Positions 11,587 through 64,000 of a DNA stretch of 64,000 nt are shown piece by piece (within the stretch, counting starts at the first letter, position 1; the number at the start of each line of letters is the position of its first letter). The translations under genes were made by a program, and so were the position numbers. A model generated the notes under the pieces. It was not told where the DNA came from. It ran no database searches and worked only from the letters and a program-made list of their open reading frames with translations. The DNA is from Siphonodentalium dalli (Eukaryota > Mollusca > Scaphopoda > Gadilida > Siphonodentaliidae), in contig CP136067.1 of the NCBI GenBank assembly GCA_032622095.1, positions 131,505,990-131,569,989 on the forward strand, read 5' to 3'.

Positions 11587-13625
11587 CGGGAACGGGACCA
11601 ACCGACCCAGAGGCAACCTGGCGTACCCGATCAAACCGGGACAATTCGACCTGAGACAACCCAACCCAGGGGCAACCCGACCCAGGGACAACCCGACCCG
11701 ATCAAGCCGGGACAATCTGACACGGTACAACCCGACCCAGGGACAACCAAACCCTGGGACAACCCGACCCAGAGACAACCCGACACAATAAAACCTGAAC
11801 AACCCGACCCAGGGACAACCCGACACAGGGACAACCCGACCCAGGGAAAACCGACCCGGATATCCTGACCCGATCAAGCCGGGACAATCTGACACGGTAC
11901 AACCCGACCAGGGACAACCCAACCCTGGGACAACCCGACCCAGAGACAACCCGAAACAATAAAACCAGGACAACCCGACCCAGGGGCAACCCGGCAAAGG
12001 GACAACCCGACCCGATCAAGCCGGGGCAATCTGACACGGTACAACCCGACCCAGGGACAACCCAACCCTGGGACAACCCGACCCAGAGACAACCCGACAC
12101 AATAAAACCTGAACAACCCGACCCAGGGACAACCCGGCACAGGGACAACCCGACCCAGGGAAAACCGACCCGGGACATCCTGACCCGATCAAGCCGGGAC
12201 AATCTGACACGGTACAACCCGACCCAGGGACAACCAAACCCTGGGACAACCCGACCCAGAGACAACCCGACACAATAACACCTGAACAAACCGACCCAGG
12301 GACAACCCGACACAGGGACAACCCGACCCAGGGAAAACCGACCCGGGACATCCTGACCCGATCAAGCCGGGACAATCTGACACGGTACAACCCGACCCAG
12401 GGACAACCCAACCCTGGGACGACCCGACCCAGAGACAACCCGAAACAATAAAACCTGGACAACCCGACCCAGGGGCAACTCGGCAAAGGAACAACCCGAC
12501 CCGATCAAGCCGGGGCAATCTGACACGGTACAATCCGACCCAGGGACAACCCAACCCTGGGACAACCCGACCCAGAGACAACCCGACACAATAAAACCTG
12601 AACAACCCGACCCAGGGACAATCCGGCAAAGGGACAACCCGACCCGATCAAGCCGGGGCAATATGACACGGTACAACCCGACCCAGGGACAACCCAACCC
12701 TGGGACAACCCGACCCAGAGACAACCCGACACAATAAAAACTGAACAACCCGACCCAGGGACAACCCGACACAGGGACAACCCGACCCAGGGAAAACCGA
12801 CCCGGGACACACTGACCCGATCAAGCCGGGACAATCTGACACGGTACAACCCGACCCAGGGACAACCAAACCCTGTGACAATCAGACCCAGAGACAACCG
12901 ACACAATAACACCTGAACAACCCGACCCAGGGACAACCCGACCCAGGGACAACCCGACACAGGGACAACCCGACCCAGTGAAAACCGACCCGGGACATCC
13001 TGACCCGATCAAGCCCGGACAATCTGACACTGTACAACCCGACCCAGGGACAACCCAACCATGGGACAACCCGACCCAGAGACAACCCGAAACAATAAAA
13101 CCTGGACAACCCGACCCAGGGGCAACCCGACACAGGGACAACCCGACCCGATCAAGCCGGGGTAATCTGGCACGGTACAACCCGACCCAGGGACAACCCA
13201 ACCCTGGGACAACCCGACCAGAGACAACCCGACACAATAAAACCTGAACAACCCGACCCAGGGACAATCCGACACAGGGACAACCCGACCCAGGGAAAAC
13301 CGACCCGGGACATCCTGACCCGATCAAGCCGGGACAATCTGACACGGTACAACCCGACTCAGGACAACCCAACCATGGGACAACCCGACCCAGAGACAAC
13401 CCGAAGCAATAAAACCTGGACAACCCGACCCAGGGGCAACCCGGCACAGGGACAACCCGACCCGATCAAGCCGGGACAATCTGACACGGTACAACCCGAC
13501 ACAGGGACAACCCGACCCAGAGAAAACCTAACCCGATAAAACCTGGACTATCCGACACAGGGACAACCCGACCCGGGACATCCCAACCAGAGACAACCCG
13601 ATCCGATAAAACCTGGACAACCCGA
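11587..13625. repeat. GC-rich higher-order minisatellite in intron 2
   Basis: A short core, CAGGGACAACCCGACC with variants, repeats throughout. A landmark GATCAAGCCGGG recurs 12 times at 11,700, 11,872, 12,014, 12,187, 12,360, 12,503, 12,646, 12,819, 13,007, 13,150, 13,322 and 13,464. The steps are about 143 or 173 bp, once 188. The longer form holds an extra block of about 29 bp (CAGGGAAAACCGACCCGGGA). Open frames of 60-208 codons on either strand are products of the repeat, not genes. The array starts about 35 bp after the exon 2 donor. Confidence 0.97.
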
Positions 13626-13974: not shown

Positions 13975-14572
13975 ACAACCCGACCTGGAAGTCTTGACAA
14001 CCCGACCCAAAATACGGCCGGTCGGGTTGTCCCTGTCGGGTTGTCCCTGTCGGTGGACGCGCTTAACGGGTCGGGTTGTCCCTGTCGGGTTGTCCCGACC
14101 CTGTCGGGTTGTTCCTGTCGGTGGACGCGCGGGTCGGGTTGCCCCTGTCGGTGGACGCGCGGGTCGGGTTGTCCCTGTCGGTGGACGCGCGGGTCGGGTT
14201 GTCCCTGTCGGTGGACGCGCGGGTCGGTTTGTCCCTGTCGGTGGACGCGCGGGTCGGGTTGTCCCTGTCGGGTTGTCCCTGTCGGGTTGTCCCTGTCGGG
14301 TTGTCCTGCATGGTCGGGTTGTCCTGATCGGGTTGTCTCTGTCGGTGGACGCGCTGGTCGAGTTGTCCCTGTCGGTGGACGCGCTGGTCGGGTTGTCCCT
14401 GTCGGTGGACGCGCGGGTCGGGTTGTCCCTGTCGGTGGACGCGTGGGTCGGGTTGTCCCTGTCGGTGGACGCGCGGGTCGGGTTGTCCCTGTCGGTGGAC
14501 GCGCTGGTCGGGTTGTCCCTGTCGGTGGACGCGCTGGTCGGGTTGTCCCTGTCGGTGGACGCGCTTAACTAA
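13975..14572. repeat. 30-bp minisatellite, inverted relative to the preceding array
   Basis: The unit is GGTCGGGTTGTCCCTG plus TCGGTGGACGCGC. Its first 16 bases are the exact reverse complement of the core CAGGGACAACCCGACC of the array at 11,587-13,625. About 14 units carry the GGACGCGC block; the others have only the core. Several frames are open through the array on both strands because 30 is a multiple of three; I do not take these as coding. Confidence 0.96.
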
Positions 14573-25395: not shown

Positions 25396-26170
25396 TACAC
25401 CGTTCAGTCAGACAAGTTAAATCCATGAATGTCACATTCACTGTTACTCTGGCTACCTTTATTGTGATTTTAAGTCTGACAAATAACCAGTAATTATGGG
25501 GGGATCACCGGAAGCGGATGATCGACGTAATGTACGTCATCTTTCTTGGCGACAACGTCAACAAGAATAGTTCCGGCTTGTATTCCACTAGAGGTATACA
25601 CTAATATGTATTCAATGGCTGGGATTCAGTTGAATACATGTGACTCACGTCAATGGGTGTGGAATAAATATCATTATACTTCTTGGGTGACGATATTCCA
25701 TATTTACTTTTAATAATATTTATGGATATCAAAAATACATACTCATTCAGACTTGTCATATAAAATTACAAATCAACAGTTACAGATATTGAAGAGATTT
25801 ACAAATAAATTGTCGGTTTCAATTATTCGTTTTGTGGGGCTTTATTTATTTAGTTTATGAGTGCAGACAACTGCGTACCTTTCTTCAATGGGACAAGAAT
25901 CAGTCCTGGCCATGTCTCCTTTGTTACAAATGAGACTGGATATGGCCAGCGCCTGTAACCACTTACCAAAGTGCAAGCAGTTTCTTTCTACACATCTCAA
26001 TAACAAAAAATAGAAATGAGAAATTAATATAAATTTGATTTAGTCTAATAGTCTAAGGGAAGCATCAGAGCAGGTATATATAGAGTCGTTACCTCGACTA
26101 ACCACCATAACAGTGTGACTTGTGAATAGAGAATTTAAAAGTGAGGATATTTCTATTTATATTTTTTCAG
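25396..26170. other. End of intron 2
   Basis: No supported feature other than the polypyrimidine-rich acceptor TATATTTTTTCAG before exon 3. Confidence 0.5.
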
Positions 26171-26322
26171 GTACGGCGAGCAGAACGTGTACAGAGAATG
26201 GCACGTGGTATATAAGTCCAAATACTCAAAAAGAATTCACAGATTACACAGGGTGTTATCCACCGTCTCATCAGAACAATGGACATACAAATAAAATACC
26301 AGAAGTGGACCCCATTCTCGTG
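26171..26322 (+). CDS. Class B1 GPCR, exon 3 (end of the hormone receptor domain)
   Basis: The exon starts in phase 1 and reads GTASRTCTENGTWYISPN then TQKEFTDYTGCYPP, ending in phase 0 at CTCGTG|GTATGT. ASRTC..NGTW and DYTGC give ectodomain cysteines 5 and 6 and the conserved tryptophan, completing the three-disulfide set. Asn-Gly-Thr sequons occur in NGTW and across the exon 2 junction (N|GT). The tail, through KIPEVDPILV, is the linker to TM1. Confidence 0.95.
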
Positions 26323-27113
26323 GTATGTCGGATGGTCACGTGATGTAAACAATATTTATTCTAGCTCTCACATATACATGAATATATAATAATGTAATTA
26401 TAATAAATACAATTTTTTCGTTTCTTGTTTTTGGTGAGTTTTTCAAATGTGAGATATGGAAGATCTGACAACAAGCAAAATGCTTTTTTAAAGTCATCTC
26501 CTCAGTGTGTTACTTCTGAATCAGAAATGATTTCATTATGGTTATATGTCGATTATTATATGCCAAGTTAGCTTTTTTCTGGTCCAGGTGAAAATTAGCA
26601 CATGGTCGTCTATAAAGGAAAATCATGATTGGGTAAAAGATTTCGAAAATATATTGTAACTGAAGTTTGTCATTAACTGTATCTATACGATACTCTTATC
26701 AGTCAATAGTGTATGACTAGGATGTTTTAAAGAGAAACTAGAATAATTTAATATTCATAAAGACAAAAAAGTACAATTGAAAATCCCACTTGTGCTGATA
26801 AGTTGGATGGTCACTTGTTTGAATCGGACAATAGCTAATGCGAATAATTATGACCTCCATCCCGCCTAATGAATAATTGACCATTACAATGTGTATTTGT
26901 ATTACTGATAGGAGAATCCACATAGTAAAGAGGGTAAGGATGTTGATCTCTTTCCGACACCATGTACACCAATATATGTTATGCTAGTCTGAAGGCGATT
27001 TGACTAATGTTGCACCAAAAACGTGTTTCAAGAGATAGAATTTTAATAAAAATGTAATAATGTGATAAAGGGTGACTGTACACTAAATCCGGCCACTTAT
27101 GGTGCCATCTCCT
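26323..27113. other. Start of intron 3
   Basis: AT-rich intron sequence in which I see no feature. Confidence 0.4.
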
Positions 27114-37775: not shown

Positions 37776-37994
37776 TATCAGGGATAATATTTGGCAAATT
37801 CTAAAAGAATTTGGCAAAAAATATTTTCATTTGGCAAAAGTTAATTTCAGTCCATCGCGGACCCTGACTAAAATAACGCGACGGATTAAAATAGCAGCGT
37901 CCCATCAACACAGCAGTCGTCAACGCTGGCAATATTTACAGAGCCGTTGATGGAGACACTTCATGTCAAATTTAATCTTCTTTTTTCATTTCAG

Positions 37995-38163
37995 CAAACT
38001 TCACTGCCCAAGAAACATCATTCACATTAACCTGTTCGTGTCATTCATCTTACGAGCTGGAGTATTCTTCCTAAAACAAATTTTATTGGTTCAAGGGGTG
38101 GGCTTGGAATCTGACATCACATACGACGGAGTCGGCAAATTAATATTCAACCCAAACGGAACG
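37995..38163 (+). CDS. Class B1 GPCR, exon 5 (ICL1, TM2, ECL1)
   Basis: After TTCATTTCAG the exon completes an Arg codon and reads KLHCPRNIIHINLFVSFILR then AGVFFLKQILLVQG and a polar loop ending FNPNGT. LHC.RN.IH..LF.SF.LRA is the strongest family signature here; the His in NIIHIN is the conserved TM2 histidine. The loop GLESDITYDGVGKLIFNPN is ECL1, ending in an NGT sequon. Phase 0 at the donor ACG|GTATGT. Confidence 0.97.
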
Positions 38164-41926: not shown

Positions 41927-42083
41927 CATTGGGAATGTAAGACACTGGTATCTGTTTATAACTACGTCCATACAGCGAATTATGTCTGGATTATGGTGGA
42001 AGGTCTCTATCTACAAATGTTGCTGTCAGTGACAGTCTTCTCGGAAAAATCGGGCCTCAAGTGGTACATTTTATTCGGATGGA
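41927..42083 (+). CDS. Class B1 GPCR, exon 6 (TM3, ICL2, start of TM4)
   Basis: After CATTTCAG the exon reads HWECKTLVSVYNYVHTANY then VWIMVEGLYLQMLL and SVTVFSEKSGLKWYILFGW, with one base over (phase 1) at GGATGGA|GTGAGT. WEC carries the TM3 cysteine that pairs with ECL2. VEGLYL is the class B TM3 hallmark, and FGW opens TM4. If intron 6 were retained, the frame would run into MITE sequence and stop at 42,191. Confidence 0.98.
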
Positions 42084-42096
42084 GTGAGTTTTCTCC

Positions 42097-44335: not shown

Positions 44336-44734
44336 TTAACCATTTACCCAACAAACCGGCCAAAAACGGCCAAATAAAGCTTCAACAGCCTAAAATATCT
44401 TCGGTCTGTCTCAATAGAACCATACAAATATGGATATCATTGGAACCGGCTCCTTGACCACATTGTGATAGTTACAGTTATGCCCTGTTTCAATGCATTC
44501 TCTTATATATGCGAGTCGACCATAGGTCGCCTCGCATATATAAGAGAATGCATTGGCCTAACAAAAATCTTTATTAACACTTTTTACCATTTTGTCTTAC
44601 ATTCTTTAACAATTTTATAATTTTTAATGTGTTAAGCCAATGCATTCTCTTATATATGCGAGGCGACCTATGGTCGACTCGCATATATAAGAGAATGCAT
44701 TGGCACAGGGCCGTTCTGTTGGATAAAGGGTTAA
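44336..44734 (+). mobile_element. MITE family A, copy 8, ending 20 bp before exon 7
   Basis: TTAA flanks; left end CCATTTACCCAACAAACC, right end TGTTGGATAAAGGG. Hairpins at about 44,492-44,558 and 44,637-44,703. Only ATCTAATTATTTTCTTTCAG separates it from exon 7, so the branch point of intron 6 must lie in that short run or inside the MITE. Confidence 0.93.
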
Positions 44735-44754: not shown

Positions 44755-44815
44755 GTTGGCCGCTACTCTTCGTTATTCCTTGGGTCATCGTTCGATCAAC
44801 TCTGGAAGATATATA
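44755..44815 (+). CDS. Class B1 GPCR, exon 7 (TM4 to ECL2)
   Basis: After TTCTTTCAG the 61-nt exon completes a Ser codon and reads WPLLFVIPWVIVRSTLEDI with two bases over (phase 2) at GATATATA|GTAAGT. PLLFVIPW..V matches TM4 of glucagon- and PTH-type receptors. It joins exon 8 as EDIYCW, the conserved ECL2 cysteine-tryptophan. Reading past the donor gives two stops at once (TAG TAA). The exon is boxed in by a MITE 20 bp upstream and a splice-donor array directly downstream. Confidence 0.96.
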
Positions 44816-47018
44816 GTAAGTGTGGAGAGTCTGACGAAAGATATATAGCAAGTGTGGAGAGTCTGACGAAAGATATATAGTAAGTGTGGAGAGTCTGACG
44901 AAAGATATATAGTAAGTGTGGAGAGTCTGACGAAAGATATATAGTAAGTGTGGAGAGTCTGACGAAAGATATATAGTAAGTGTGGAGAGTCTGACGAAAG
45001 ATATATAGTAAGTGTGGAGAGTCTGACGAAAGATATATAGTAAGTGTGGAGAGTCTGACGAAAGATATCTAGTAAGTGTGGAGAGTCTGACGAAAGATAT
45101 ATAGTAAGTGTGGCGAGTTTGACGAAAGATATCTAGTAAGTGTGGAGAGTCTGACGAAAGATATATAGTAAGTGTGGCGAGTTTGACGAAAGATATAAAG
45201 TAAGTGTGGAGAGTCTGACGAAAGATATATAGTAAGTGTGGAGAGTCTGACGAAAGATATCTAGTAAGTGTGGAGAGTCTGACGAAAGATATATAGTAAG
45301 TGTGGAGAGTCTGACGAAAGATATCTAGTAAGTGTGGAGAGTCTGACGAAAGATATATAGTAAGTGTGGAGAGTCTGACGAAAGATATATAGTAAGTGTG
45401 GAGAGTCTGACGAAATATATCTAGTAAGTGTGGAGAGTCTGACGAAAGATATCTAGTAAGTGTGGAGAGTCTGGCGAAAGATATCTAGTAAGTTTGGAGA
45501 GTCTGACGAAAGATATCTAGTAAGTGTGGAGAGTCTGACGAAAGGTATCTAGTAAGTGTGGAGTCTGACGAAAGGTATCTAGTAAGTGTGGAGAGTCTAT
45601 CGAAAGATATATAGTAAGTGTGGAGAGTCTGACGAAAGATATATAGTAAGTGTGGAGAGTCTGACGAAAGATATATAGTAAGTGTGGAGAGTCTGACGAA
45701 AGATATATAGTAAGTGTGGAGAGTCTGACGAAAGATATATAGTAAGTGTGGAGAGTCTGACGAAAGATATATAGTAAGTGTGGAGAGTCTGACGAAAGAT
45801 ATCTAGTAAGTGTGGATCGAGAGTCTGACGAAAGATATCTAGTAAGTGTGGAGAGTCTATCGAAAGATATATAGTAAGTGTGGAGAGTCTGACGAAAGAT
45901 ATCTAGTAAGTGTGGAGAGTCTGACGAAAGATATCTAGTAAGTGTGGAGAGTCTGGCGAAAGATATCTAGTAAGTTTGGAGAGTCTGACGAAAGATATCT
46001 AGTAAGTGTGGAGAGTCTGACGAAAGGTATCTAGTAAGTGTGGAGTCTGACGAAAGGTATCTAGTAAGTGTGGAGAGTCTATCGAAAGATATATAGTAAG
46101 TGTGGAGAGTCTGACGAAAGATATATAGAAAGTGTGGAGAGTCTGACGAAAGATATATAGTAAGTGTGGAGAGTCTGACGAAAGATATATAGTAAGTGTG
46201 GAGAGTCTGACGAAAGATATATAGTAACTGTGGAGAGTCTGACGAAAGATATCTAGTAAGTGTGGAGAGTCTGACGAAAGATATCTAGTAAGTGTGGAGA
46301 GTCTATCGAAAGATATATAGTAAGTGTGGAGAGTCTGACGAAAGACATATAGTAAGTGTGGAGAGTCTGACGAAAGATATATAGTAAGTGTGGAGAGTCT
46401 GACGAAAGATATCTAGTAAGTGTGGAGAGTCTGACGAAAGATATCTAGTAAGTGTGGAGAGTCTATCGAAAGATATATAGTAAGTGTGGAGAGTCTGACG
46501 AAAGATATATAGTAAGTGTGGAGAGTCTGACGAAAGATATCTAGTAAGTGTGGATCGAGAGTCTGACGAAAGATATCTAGTAAGTGTGGAGAGTCTATCG
46601 AAAGATATATAGTAAGTGTGGAGAGTCTGACGAAAGATATATAGTAAGTGTGGAGAGTCTGGCGGAAGATATATAGTAAGTGTGGAGAATCTGACGAAAG
46701 ATATATAGTAAGTGTGGAGAGTCTGACGAAAGATATCTAGTAAGTGTGGAGAGTCTGACGAAAGATATCTAGTAAGTGTGGAGAGTCTATCGAAAGATAT
46801 ATAGTAAGTGTGGAGAGTCTGACGAAAGATATATAGTAAGTATGGAGAGTCTGACGGAAGATAATAGTAAATGTGGAGAGTCTGACGAAAGATATCTAGT
46901 AAGTGTGGAGAGTCTATCGAAAGATATATAGTAAGTGTGGAGAGTCTGAAGAAAGATATATAGTAAGTGTGGAGAGTCTGACGAAAGATATATAGTAAGT
47001 GTGGAGAGTCTGACGAAA
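44816..47018. repeat. 32-bp array built on the exon 7 splice donor, about 69 copies
   Basis: The unit is GATATATAGTAAGTGTGG plus AGAGTCTGACGAAA; about a third read GATATCTA. The first unit overlaps the exon: its TCTGGAAGATATATA is matched in every unit by TCTGACGAAAGATATATA. Each unit therefore carries the last exon bases and GTAAGTG. Marker variants (AAAGGTATC, GTTTGGAG) repeat about 480 bp apart, showing block duplication. The 273-codon minus frame at 46,303-47,124 is mostly array and is not a gene. Confidence 0.98.
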
Positions 47019-47384
47019 GAGAAAATATCTCAATGACTATCTTTGAGAAGCTCTTCAAAAACATTTTGATCTGACATTTGGAACTCCTTAGATAAAAACA
47101 ATGAACGAATGTAAATATAAACATAACTTCGAAAAGGGTCTAACAAGCCACATAAATATGCCTAGTTAATGTACTATCACTAAACATAAACGATATGGCA
47201 AACATAAAGAGAATAAAACAATCTTGCAATATAACACTTATAACATCAGTCTATCATATTTTTTATATACACGATCATACTAACTAGCTTTACCTTCTAA
47301 GATAGTCATCAGATCAACATATCACACACTATCGACCTATAATGTGGAGTAGGTACATAATGAGATTACTTGATTCTGAAATAA

Positions 47385-48330: not shown

Positions 48331-48400
48331 CTGCTGGAGTACACACCCGACAAAAGGATACTTCTGGATTTTGAAAGGACCAATATCAGCAACGATCGTT
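48331..48400 (+). CDS. Class B1 GPCR, exon 8 (ECL2 to TM5)
   Basis: After TTACTTCTAG the 70-nt exon completes a Tyr codon and reads CWSTHPTKGYFWILKGP then ISATIV, ending phase 0 at ATCGTT|GTGAGT. The Cys pairs with the TM3 cysteine. YFWILKGPI is the start of TM5, where this family typically has a W-I-x-x-x-P pattern. Confidence 0.97.
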
Positions 48401-49239
48401 GTGAGTATATACTTAATATCTATATCAGCAACGACGCTCGTGTATTTTATTTATGCCACAATGATTCATTTAGATTTTTTTATCACAGCCATTTGATATC
48501 CCCATCCAGATATTTCCTAGTTCATATAACAATAGCAATCTGCGTTGATTGATACGCAGGCAATTTTCTTCATATTTGATTGATTTCATAACTACTTCCC
48601 ATTTTAAAGGAATATGTAACAAAGCAAATATTTTGCTAACTAAGATGTAGTTCTATTTTGGGTATAACAGTTTAACCCATGAAATGACGTTTGAATATTT
48701 ACACCCAAAGTAGAAATGTATTCCCACAGTAGGGGTGACGAACAAAATGTGTGGTATACACAACCTAGCATAGACAATTATGGTGTAAATACATTCATTG
48801 ATCAATAACAAAATATTGTTTATTTGTATGCCACCTCATGTGTGGAGTCTCTGTGATAGCGTTCTTTGTGTTAAGAGGGAGGTAAAGTGGAAACATTTGA
48901 ATGGGGAATTCAGTGTTAATTTTTTAGAAAGTTTCAAGACTTATCTAGTGACAACGCGAAGCGGAATTTTTATTTTCATCCCAGGTTGGATAGTATTTGA
49001 CATTATTAAAAAGTAGGTCACCATTGTTTATCATTGTTTATAATATTTCCATCACATGTCACAAATCAAAACATAAAATGAAAATTACGCTTTGCGTTGT
49101 CACTAGATATGAAGACATGAAGTATTGTTTTAAGGTTTGTAAATATTGAGTGATATTATCTTGAAAATTAACACTGAATTCCCCATTATATGTTGCCACT
49201 TTACACCTCTTAATTCTGGAATCCGACGTGTATTTGCAG
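48401..49239. other. Intron 8
   Basis: AT-rich. 48,880-49,010 and the complement of 49,070-49,190 share loose inverted similarity (GAATTCAGTGTTAATTTT, AAAATTAACACTGAATTC), so a small foldback unit overlaps the exon 9 upstream region. Confidence 0.6.
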
Positions 49240-61430: not shown

Positions 61431-61480
61431 ACACGTCCATGACTGGAGCTTCCTGAAACGTTGCGAAACCCTGTACCAAT
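61430..61480 (+). mobile_element. MITE family C start, founder of the satellite
   Basis: TTAACACGTCCATGACTGG and AGCTTCCTGAAACGTTGCG match the family C left end near 42,584-42,630 almost base for base, then run straight into the first 27-bp satellite unit. Confidence 0.88.
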
Positions 61481-64000
61481 GCATTCTCTTATAAACCCTG
61501 TACCAATGCATTCTCTTATAAACCCTGTACCAATGCATTCTCTTATAAACCCTGTACCAATGCATTCTCTTATAAACCCTGTACCAATGCATTCTCTTAT
61601 AAACCCTGTACCAACGCATTCTCTTATAAACCCTGTACCAATGCATTCTCTTATAAACCCTGTACCAACGCATTCTCTTATAAACCCTGTACCAACGCAT
61701 TCTCTTATAAACCCTGTACCAACGCATTCTCTTATAAACCCTGTACCAATGCATTCTCTTATAAACCCTTTACCATGCATTCTCTTATGAACCCTGTACC
61801 AACGCATTCTCTTATAAACCCTGTACCAAGGCATTCTCTTATAAACCCTGTACCAATGCATTCTCATATAAACCCTGTACCAATGCATTCTCTTATAAAC
61901 CCTGTACCAATGCATTCTCTTATAAACCCTGTACCAATGCATTCTCTTATAAACCCTGTACCAATGCTTTCTCTTATAAACCCTGTACCAATGCATTCTC
62001 TTATAAACCCTGTACCAATGCATTCTCTTATAAACCCTGTACCAATGCATTCTCTTATAAACCCTGTACCAATGCATTCTCTTATAAACCCTGTACCAAT
62101 GCATTCTCTTATAAACCCTGTACCAATGCATTCTCTTATAAACCCTGTACCAACGCATTCTCTTATAAACCCTGTACCAACGCATTCTCTTATAAACCCT
62201 GTACCAACGCATTCCCTTATAAACCCTGTACCAATGCATTCTCTTATAAACCCTTTACCATGCATTCTCTTATAAACCCTGTACCAACGCATTCTCTTAT
62301 AAACCCTGTACAAATGCATTCTCTTATAAACCCTGTACCAATGCATTCTCTTATAAACCCTGTACCAAGGCATTCTCTTATAAACCCTGTACCAATGCAT
62401 TCTCTTATAAACCCTGTACCAATGCATTCTCTTATAAACCCTGTACCAATGCTTTATCTTATAAACCATGTACCAATGCTTTCTCTTATAAACCCTGTAC
62501 CAACGCATTCTCTTATAAACCCTGTACCAATGCATTCTCTTATAAACCCTGTACCAATGCATTCTCTTATAAACCCTGTACCAAAGCATTCTCTTATAAA
62601 CCCTGTACCAATGCATTCTCTTATAAACCCTGTACCAATGCATTCTCTTATAAACCCTGTACCAATGCATTCTCTTATAAACCCTGTACCAATACATTCT
62701 CTTATAAATCCTGTACCAATGCATTCTCTTATAAACCCTGTACCAATGCATTCTCTTATAAACCCTGTACCAATGCATTCTCTTATAAACCCTGTACCAA
62801 TGCATTCTCTTATAAACCCTGTACCAATGCATTCTCTTATAAACCCTGTATCAATGCATTCTCTTATAAACCCTGTACCAATGCATTCTCTTATAAACCC
62901 TGTACCATAGCATTCTCTTATAAACCCTGTACCAATGCATTCTCTTATAAACCCTGTACCAATGCATTCTTTTATAAACCCTGTACCAATGCATTCTCTT
63001 ATAAACCCTGTACCAAGGCATTCTCTCATAAACCCTGTACCAATGCATTCTCTTATAAACCCTGTACCAATGCATTCTCTTATAAACCCTGTACCAATGC
63101 ATTATCTTATAAACCCTGTACCAACGCATTCTCTTATAAACCCTGTACCAACGCATTCTCTTATAAACCCTGTATCAATGCATTCTCTTATAAACCCTGT
63201 ACCAATGCATTCTCTTATAAACCCTGTACCATGGCATTCTCTTATAAACCCTGTACCAATGCATTCTCTTATAAACCCTGTACCAATGCATTCTTTTATA
63301 AACCCTGTACCAATGCATTCTCTTATAAACCCTGTACCAAGGCATTCTCTCATAAACCCTGTACCAATGCATTCTCTTATAAACCCTGTACCAATGCATT
63401 CTCTTATAAACCCTGTACCAATGCATTATCTTATAAACCCTGTACCAACGCATTCTCTTATAAACCCTGTACCAATGCATTCTCTTATAAACCCTGTACC
63501 AATGCATTCTCTTATAAACCCTGTACCAATGCATTCTCTTATAAACCCTGTACCAATGCATTCTCTTATAAACCCTGTACCAATGCATTCTCTTATAAAC
63601 CCTGTACCAATGCATTCTCTTATAAACCCTGTACCAACGCATTCTCTTATAAACCCTGTACCAACGCATTCTCTTATAAACTCTGTACCAACGCATTCTC
63701 TTATAAACCCTGTACCAATGCATTCTCTTATAAACCCTTTACCATGCATTCTCTTATAAACCCTGTACCAACGCATTCTCTTATAAACCCTGTACAAATG
63801 CATTCTCTTATAAACCCTGTACCAATGCATTCTCTTATAAACCCTGTACCAAGGCATTCTCTTATAAACCCTGTACCAATGCATTCTCTTATAAACCCTG
63901 TACCAATGCATTCTCTTATAAACCCTGTACCAATGCTTTCTCTTATAAACCATGTACCAATGCTTTCTCTTATAAACCCTGTACCAACGCATTCTCTTAT
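61471..64000. repeat. 27-bp satellite derived from the MITE hairpin
   Basis: About 93 units of CCCTGTACCAATGCATTC plus TCTTATAAA reach the window end. The unit is the CCCTGTG motif plus the outer 18 bases of the 67-base hairpin arm, joined head to tail. One-base-shorter units (CCCTTTACCATGC) at 61,766, 62,251 and 63,735 mark higher-order blocks of 485 and 1,484 bp. Because 27 is a multiple of three, frames of up to 322 codons stay open on both strands; none is coding. Confidence 0.98.

Follow-up and report, generated by a model that had tools for sequence, protein, structure and literature searches.

A receptor gene carries, at the end of its exon 7, a 32-bp tandem array in which one exon-joined splice donor is followed by 68 near-identical copies of itself. 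With a probability of roughly 0.6 this is a minisatellite founded at the exon-intron junction, with its first donor the one in use, and its presence is for the most part a by-product of duplication, though truncated transcripts possibly leak from it. Arrays of this type recur at exon ends elsewhere in the genome, and it is this recurrence that points to a by-product rather than to a device for the receptor.

The gene lies on the + strand, as do all of its features given here, of the window, that is the whole 64,000-nucleotide stretch analysed (C7:131505990-131569989, in a genome of 2.23 Gb and 9 contigs). On protein similarity it is a class B1 (secretin-type) G protein-coupled receptor. Four joined exon pieces match the Pfam 7tm_2 domain over 149 amino acids (E 2.2e-34, 119.3 bits) and, among PDB entries, the GLP-2 (GLP2R), secretin, GIP and glucagon receptors (E ~1e-24 to 7e-26), with GLP2R and the secretin receptor among the best (E about 1e-25). 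An N-terminal hormone-receptor (HRM) domain is matched by a single exon at E 0.00072 and 20.3 bits, which is below the curated Pfam cut-off of 26.2; the ORF that holds part of this exon is at 26119..26340, the edges of the exon being approximate. The TM2 region matches 7tm_2 at 37972..38094 (C7:131543961-131544083), exon 6 (41927..42084, donor at 42085) runs from TM3 to the start of TM4, and exon 7 (44755..44815, 61 nt, WPLLFVIPWVIVRSTLEDIY) encodes the remainder of TM4 and the start of ECL2. The true donor of exon 7, GTAAGT, is at 44816..44821, and exon 8 (CWSTHPTKGYFWILKGPISATIV) is at 48331..48400 with its donor at 48401. A TM6-TM7 match follows past the window end, at C7:131582787-131582939.

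Tandem Repeats Finder (TRF) calls a single array at 44806-47020 (period 32, 69.1 copies, 94% matches), and with the donor as anchor the array divides into 69 units, so the original prediction of about 69 tandem donors at the end of exon 7 is borne out. The unit is composed of 10 exon bases and 22 intron bases, the first unit overlapping the last 10 bases of the exon, and just five units depart from 32 bp in length (30, 36, 30, 36 and 31). That the units carry donors also holds: the core is GTAAGT in 65 of the 69, with GCAAGT, GAAAGT, GTAACT and GTAAAT occurring once each. Of the 68 later copies, 66 retain the GT itself, unit 2 having GC and unit 42 GA, while units 3 to 8, near the exon, are perfect copies. 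Recursive splicing was considered and set aside, as AGGT is absent from the unit junction of the receptor array. A 64-base query of two units finds 33 places in the genome, by a search that passes over very common words, and all of them are within the array itself.

Reading outward from the donor, the end of exon 7 matches the unit exactly for 10 bases (AAGATATATA). The original prediction had the boundary repeated in each unit together with an upstream TCTG..GAA; the 10-base match stands, but the extension needs a 3-base gap and falls away, as the TCTGACGA of the unit, which contains its TCTG, derives from the intron side. The array is bounded on the left, inside the exon, by AAGA (44806..44809) and on the right by another AAGA (47017..47020), a putative microhomology partner, where the last unit gives way to unrelated intron. 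With the surplus copies removed the sequence reads ...CTCTGG-AAGA-TATATA|GTAAGTGTGGAGAGTCTGACGA-AAGA-GAAAATATC..., in which the two AAGA are 32 bases apart. Two short repeats at such a distance are what slippage requires, and the presence of AAGA at both edges makes plausible a single-copy ancestor in which this pair would have been the seed for tandem duplication.

Paralogous genes (loci L056/L057 and L058) have an intron at the same position and in the same phase, also with GTAAGT, and are without such an array; their exons end in ...GAAGATGAGTT and ...AACGATGTGTT respectively, L056 and L057 being identical to each other over the stretch shown. Since the paralogues share the position and phase without the array, the end of exon 7 is older than the array, and with the 10-base match this identifies the exon-intron junction, from comparison of the sequences, as the founder, as had been predicted. 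The same comparison bears on intron gain through tandem duplication of an exonic AGGT (the Rogers model), in which a new intron comes to lie between the duplicates. Intron gain by tandem genomic duplication, as outlined in PMC4974935, resembles the present case in that the duplicated segment carries a splice signal, and the donor here is indeed flanked by tandem duplicates; the receptor array, however, has brought no new intron. With ordinary introns at the same place and phase in the paralogues, and the exon 8 acceptor about 1.3 kb past the array, gain of this intron by such duplication is exceedingly improbable.

Growth involved more than single units. Units 20-25 (45423..45612) are repeated unchanged as units 35-40 (45905-46094; 190/190 bases identical), and units 32-33 equal units 55-56 (68/68). 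Variant blocks thus recur in order within the array, so it grew partly by block duplication. The junction-founded minisatellite would have arisen, then, when the 32-bp segment was duplicated in tandem, perhaps between the two AAGA repeats, and would have reached 69 copies through slippage together with the duplication of multi-unit blocks. The entire surplus lies in intron 7 and would be removed with it; the duplication process would often catch splice junctions.

How good the copies are as donors can be gauged from pairing with the 5′ end of U1: the unit gives -7.5 kcal/mol, exon 8 -7.4, exon 6 -5.7 and a full consensus donor -14.0. Described beforehand as strong-looking, the donors of the array are therefore above that of exon 6 and level with that of exon 8, but middling against the consensus. 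Extension of exon 7 past 44815 reads TAG TAA at once, as checked for donors 2, 3, 10 and 69, and the same applies to all other later donors because all extend the same exon. The predicted product of a later donor ends ...RSTLEDI, after TM4, in agreement with the original prediction that use of a later copy would truncate the receptor there. The decoys are as variable as the other positions of the unit, and no sign of selection is seen: changes are found in 5 of 512 donor cells and 19 of 1344 other unit cells (Fisher p 0.65), columns -3, +18 and +19 having been excluded beforehand as carriers of shared variants.

The spliceosome most likely picks the first, exon-joined donor, and its use is assumed here. 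Where a later copy was picked instead, the transcript would gain TAG TAA and end after TM4. When two equally strong donors stand in tandem, the downstream one can be preferred, and splicing of human IFI6, which has a minisatellite at an exon end, reportedly uses the first three repeats; leak from the later donors, in whatever amount, is therefore quite possible. A downstream preference, if at work here, would enlarge the leak, and each instance would be a message for a truncated receptor. Such leakage could in principle be the function of the array, a poison device or rheostat in which the later donors consign a fixed fraction of transcripts to nonsense-mediated decay, with receptor output tuned by copy number. 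The stop pair after every later donor and the perfection of units 3 to 8 are in keeping with that, as are the IFI6 transcripts discussed below. Against it, the decoys vary without the retention expected of a device, the very first of them is a GC, and like arrays are present in kinesin and TCP-1 genes, where there is no special reason for tuning; it is improbable that the array serves as a rheostat. Sequestration of U1 and slower splicing, likewise proposed at the outset, are conceivable further effects of the array.

A minisatellite that supplies several splice donors is known from exon 2 of the human gene IFI6 (6-16, G1P3; Turri, Cuin and Porter 1995), in which downstream repeat units reportedly serve as donors in transcripts. 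The supposition that no case of this form had been described thus does not hold. The receptor array is of the same kind: it overlaps the end of an exon and is made of units resembling donors. The IFI6 units are said to be of 12 bp, in about 26 copies, with products that stay coding. In contrast, the receptor array has 32-bp units, 69 copies and an immediate stop from every later donor, and it has counterparts on other genes in the same genome. Relative to IFI6 the novelty lies in how large the array is, in the stop that follows at once and, most of all, in finding junction-founded arrays again on genes that are unrelated; a search of open-licence literature turned up no account of donor arrays that recur within a genome. 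Internal tandem repeats at exon-intron boundaries in human segmental duplications can alter splicing and form introns (PMC2812944); those repeats vary among paralogues and often remain exonic, whereas the receptor intron predates its array.

For effects of donor-like sites close to a true donor there are known systems. In the Drosophila P element a decoy 5′ splice site is bound by U1. The U1-bound pseudo 5′ splice site of PAH intron 11 is likewise near a true donor, and can alter its use (PMC5933811). These decoys are one or a few sites demonstrated experimentally, in distinction to the 68 of the receptor array, which are read from the sequence.

To what extent the receptor is special can be judged from exons elsewhere. 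The receptor sample comprised 23 loci, equal to 20 distinct exons of which three are those of the window itself; within the first 61 loci exon edges were read in L009 and L039-L061, and the 29 loci L010-L038, with long single frames, were considered for array coverage only. In one paralogue exon, L048, the donor is spanned by an array (37 bp x 3.8), and acceptor-spanning arrays are at L047, L049/L050 and L054, those of L049 and L050 having 61-bp units in 24.8 and 16 copies. The last two are a mirror case of the window array, with TTTCTCTTTCAG and the first receptor exon bases repeated upstream of the exon (L049 1612-3129; L050 540-1518), and belong to two C8 genes that are nearly identical and lie on opposite strands. 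In L058 there is an 11-bp array within the polypyrimidine tract.

Outside the receptor family, 108 exons were hand-picked from lists before their sequences were viewed, with recent duplicates and single-exon copies skipped: 60 of 123 listed matches for kinesin, 20 of 85 for myosin and 28 of 53 for TCP-1. Donor-spanning tandem duplications, of 2 to at least 10 copies, are present in 11 of them, and the idea of an array specific to this receptor is thereby not supported. Seven are in kinesin exons (L091, L111, L114, L130, L132, L138 and L141), one is in myosin (L067) and three are in TCP-1 (L156, L159 and L166). The first copies read as intact exon ends in eight loci and also in L156 and L159; L091, automatically sorted as 'inside' since its HMM match overruns the donor, is donor-spanning by eye. 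The arrays thus recur across genes within this sample. Acceptors are spanned in L130 and, in decayed form (73% identity), in L157. TCP-1 exon L159 has at least 7 downstream donor copies (403-732), five of seven lacking GT, so that its decoys, unlike those of the receptor array, are mostly dead. In L132 and L138 the units have 12 intron bases, as they do by eye in L156 and L159, four arrays being too few for a test.

Whether 11 is more than expected depends on the background chosen. Apart from these, the 62.4 kb of flank contain 6 arrays of score >=100, one being the distal portion of that of L159, from which 0.6 donor-spanning arrays are expected (P 5e-11); the density at score >=60 gives 1.2 (P 6e-8), and that of the window, with 21 arrays of score >=100 in 64 kb as counted from TRF output, gives 2.0 (P 1e-5). 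The homology search scores only the best candidates and may favour repeated exons. The 6 arrays with <=35 exon bases per unit are the least exposed to this bias, and for them P is 4e-5, 0.0014 and 0.018 with the flank, score >=60 and window backgrounds respectively. Both results weigh against the view that minisatellites are ubiquitous, that one of them struck a junction by chance and that the search enriched the sample by picking repeated exons. In favour of that view, tandem arrays cover 19% of the window, and GTAAGT triplets in arrays (12,245 + 22,446 = 34,691) are no commoner than those of the reversed motif (21,136 + 22,628 = 43,764). Pairs of the strict MAGGTAAGT number 1,045 + 850 in the genome as against 601 + 666 reversed; reduced to distinct places among those listed, roughly 100 in all, they amount to 11 in the first 231 Mb of C1 and 21 reversed in 189 Mb, so that by the strict motif paired donors are not clearly in excess genome-wide. 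This pair test has low power because MAGGTAAGT is the donor in just 3 of the 108 sampled exons, as guessed by an automatic procedure that is wrong for at least L091 and L141. Taking both sides, chance with sampling is an unlikely account of the receptor array, and a genome-wide excess of arrays at exon ends is tentatively taken as likely. In C1 there is also a stretch of more than 70 kb (C1:231979802-232053381) with many copies of a 26-bp unit containing CAGGTAAGT.

Donors are spanned more often than acceptors among the 108 exons, by 11 to 1 (p 0.006), or 11 to 2 when L157 is included (p 0.022). This preponderance would suit a selective advantage, in which additional U1 sites downstream help to define a short exon of 61 nt with a middling donor and duplication is favoured for that reason. 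Inclusion of PAH exon 11 is promoted when U1 binds beyond the true donor, on its downstream side (PMC5933811), and SRSF1 and U2 components can be recruited by a donor placed downstream (PMC8724738). But donors with arrays are not weaker than others (median rough score 3.7 against 3.3, from the same automatic guess, wrong for at least L091 and L141), and acceptor arrays also occur, the ratio being 12 to 4 (p 0.077) with the class B exons added and the window exon left out. Help from extra U1 sites is an improbable reason for the array.

A junction-founded minisatellite, as preferred here, may have wider bearing. It is conceivable, and offered tentatively, that in this genome tandem duplications start from splice junctions, and from 5′ splice sites in particular, far more often than from nearby intron, so that several percent of exon ends would have arrays of true-sequence donors and splicing would need a rule that chooses the exon-joined copy from up to 69 identical ones. 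The choice among equal donors is an old question, approached by engineering two or three copies. This one genome supplies a natural series, with 69 near-identical donors on a single exon and 2 to 10 or more on exons of kinesin, myosin and TCP-1 genes, and RNA reads alone could reveal the rule. Should the excess at exon ends hold genome-wide, it would point either to a process of duplication linked with splice junctions or to selection for retaining additional donors.

Other repeats of the window merit mention. A 27-bp satellite of 94 copies (61466-64000) runs off the window end. It has CAATGCATTCTCTTAT in common with palindromic MITE-like elements of intron 6 (44490-44555 and 44638-44704), where this sequence is terminal, which suggests that the satellite may derive from such an element. 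Two GC-rich minisatellites, at 11625-13601 and 14021-14565, lie near each other in opposite orientation, with reverse-complementary cores (GGGACAACCCGAC and GTCGGGTTGTCCC).
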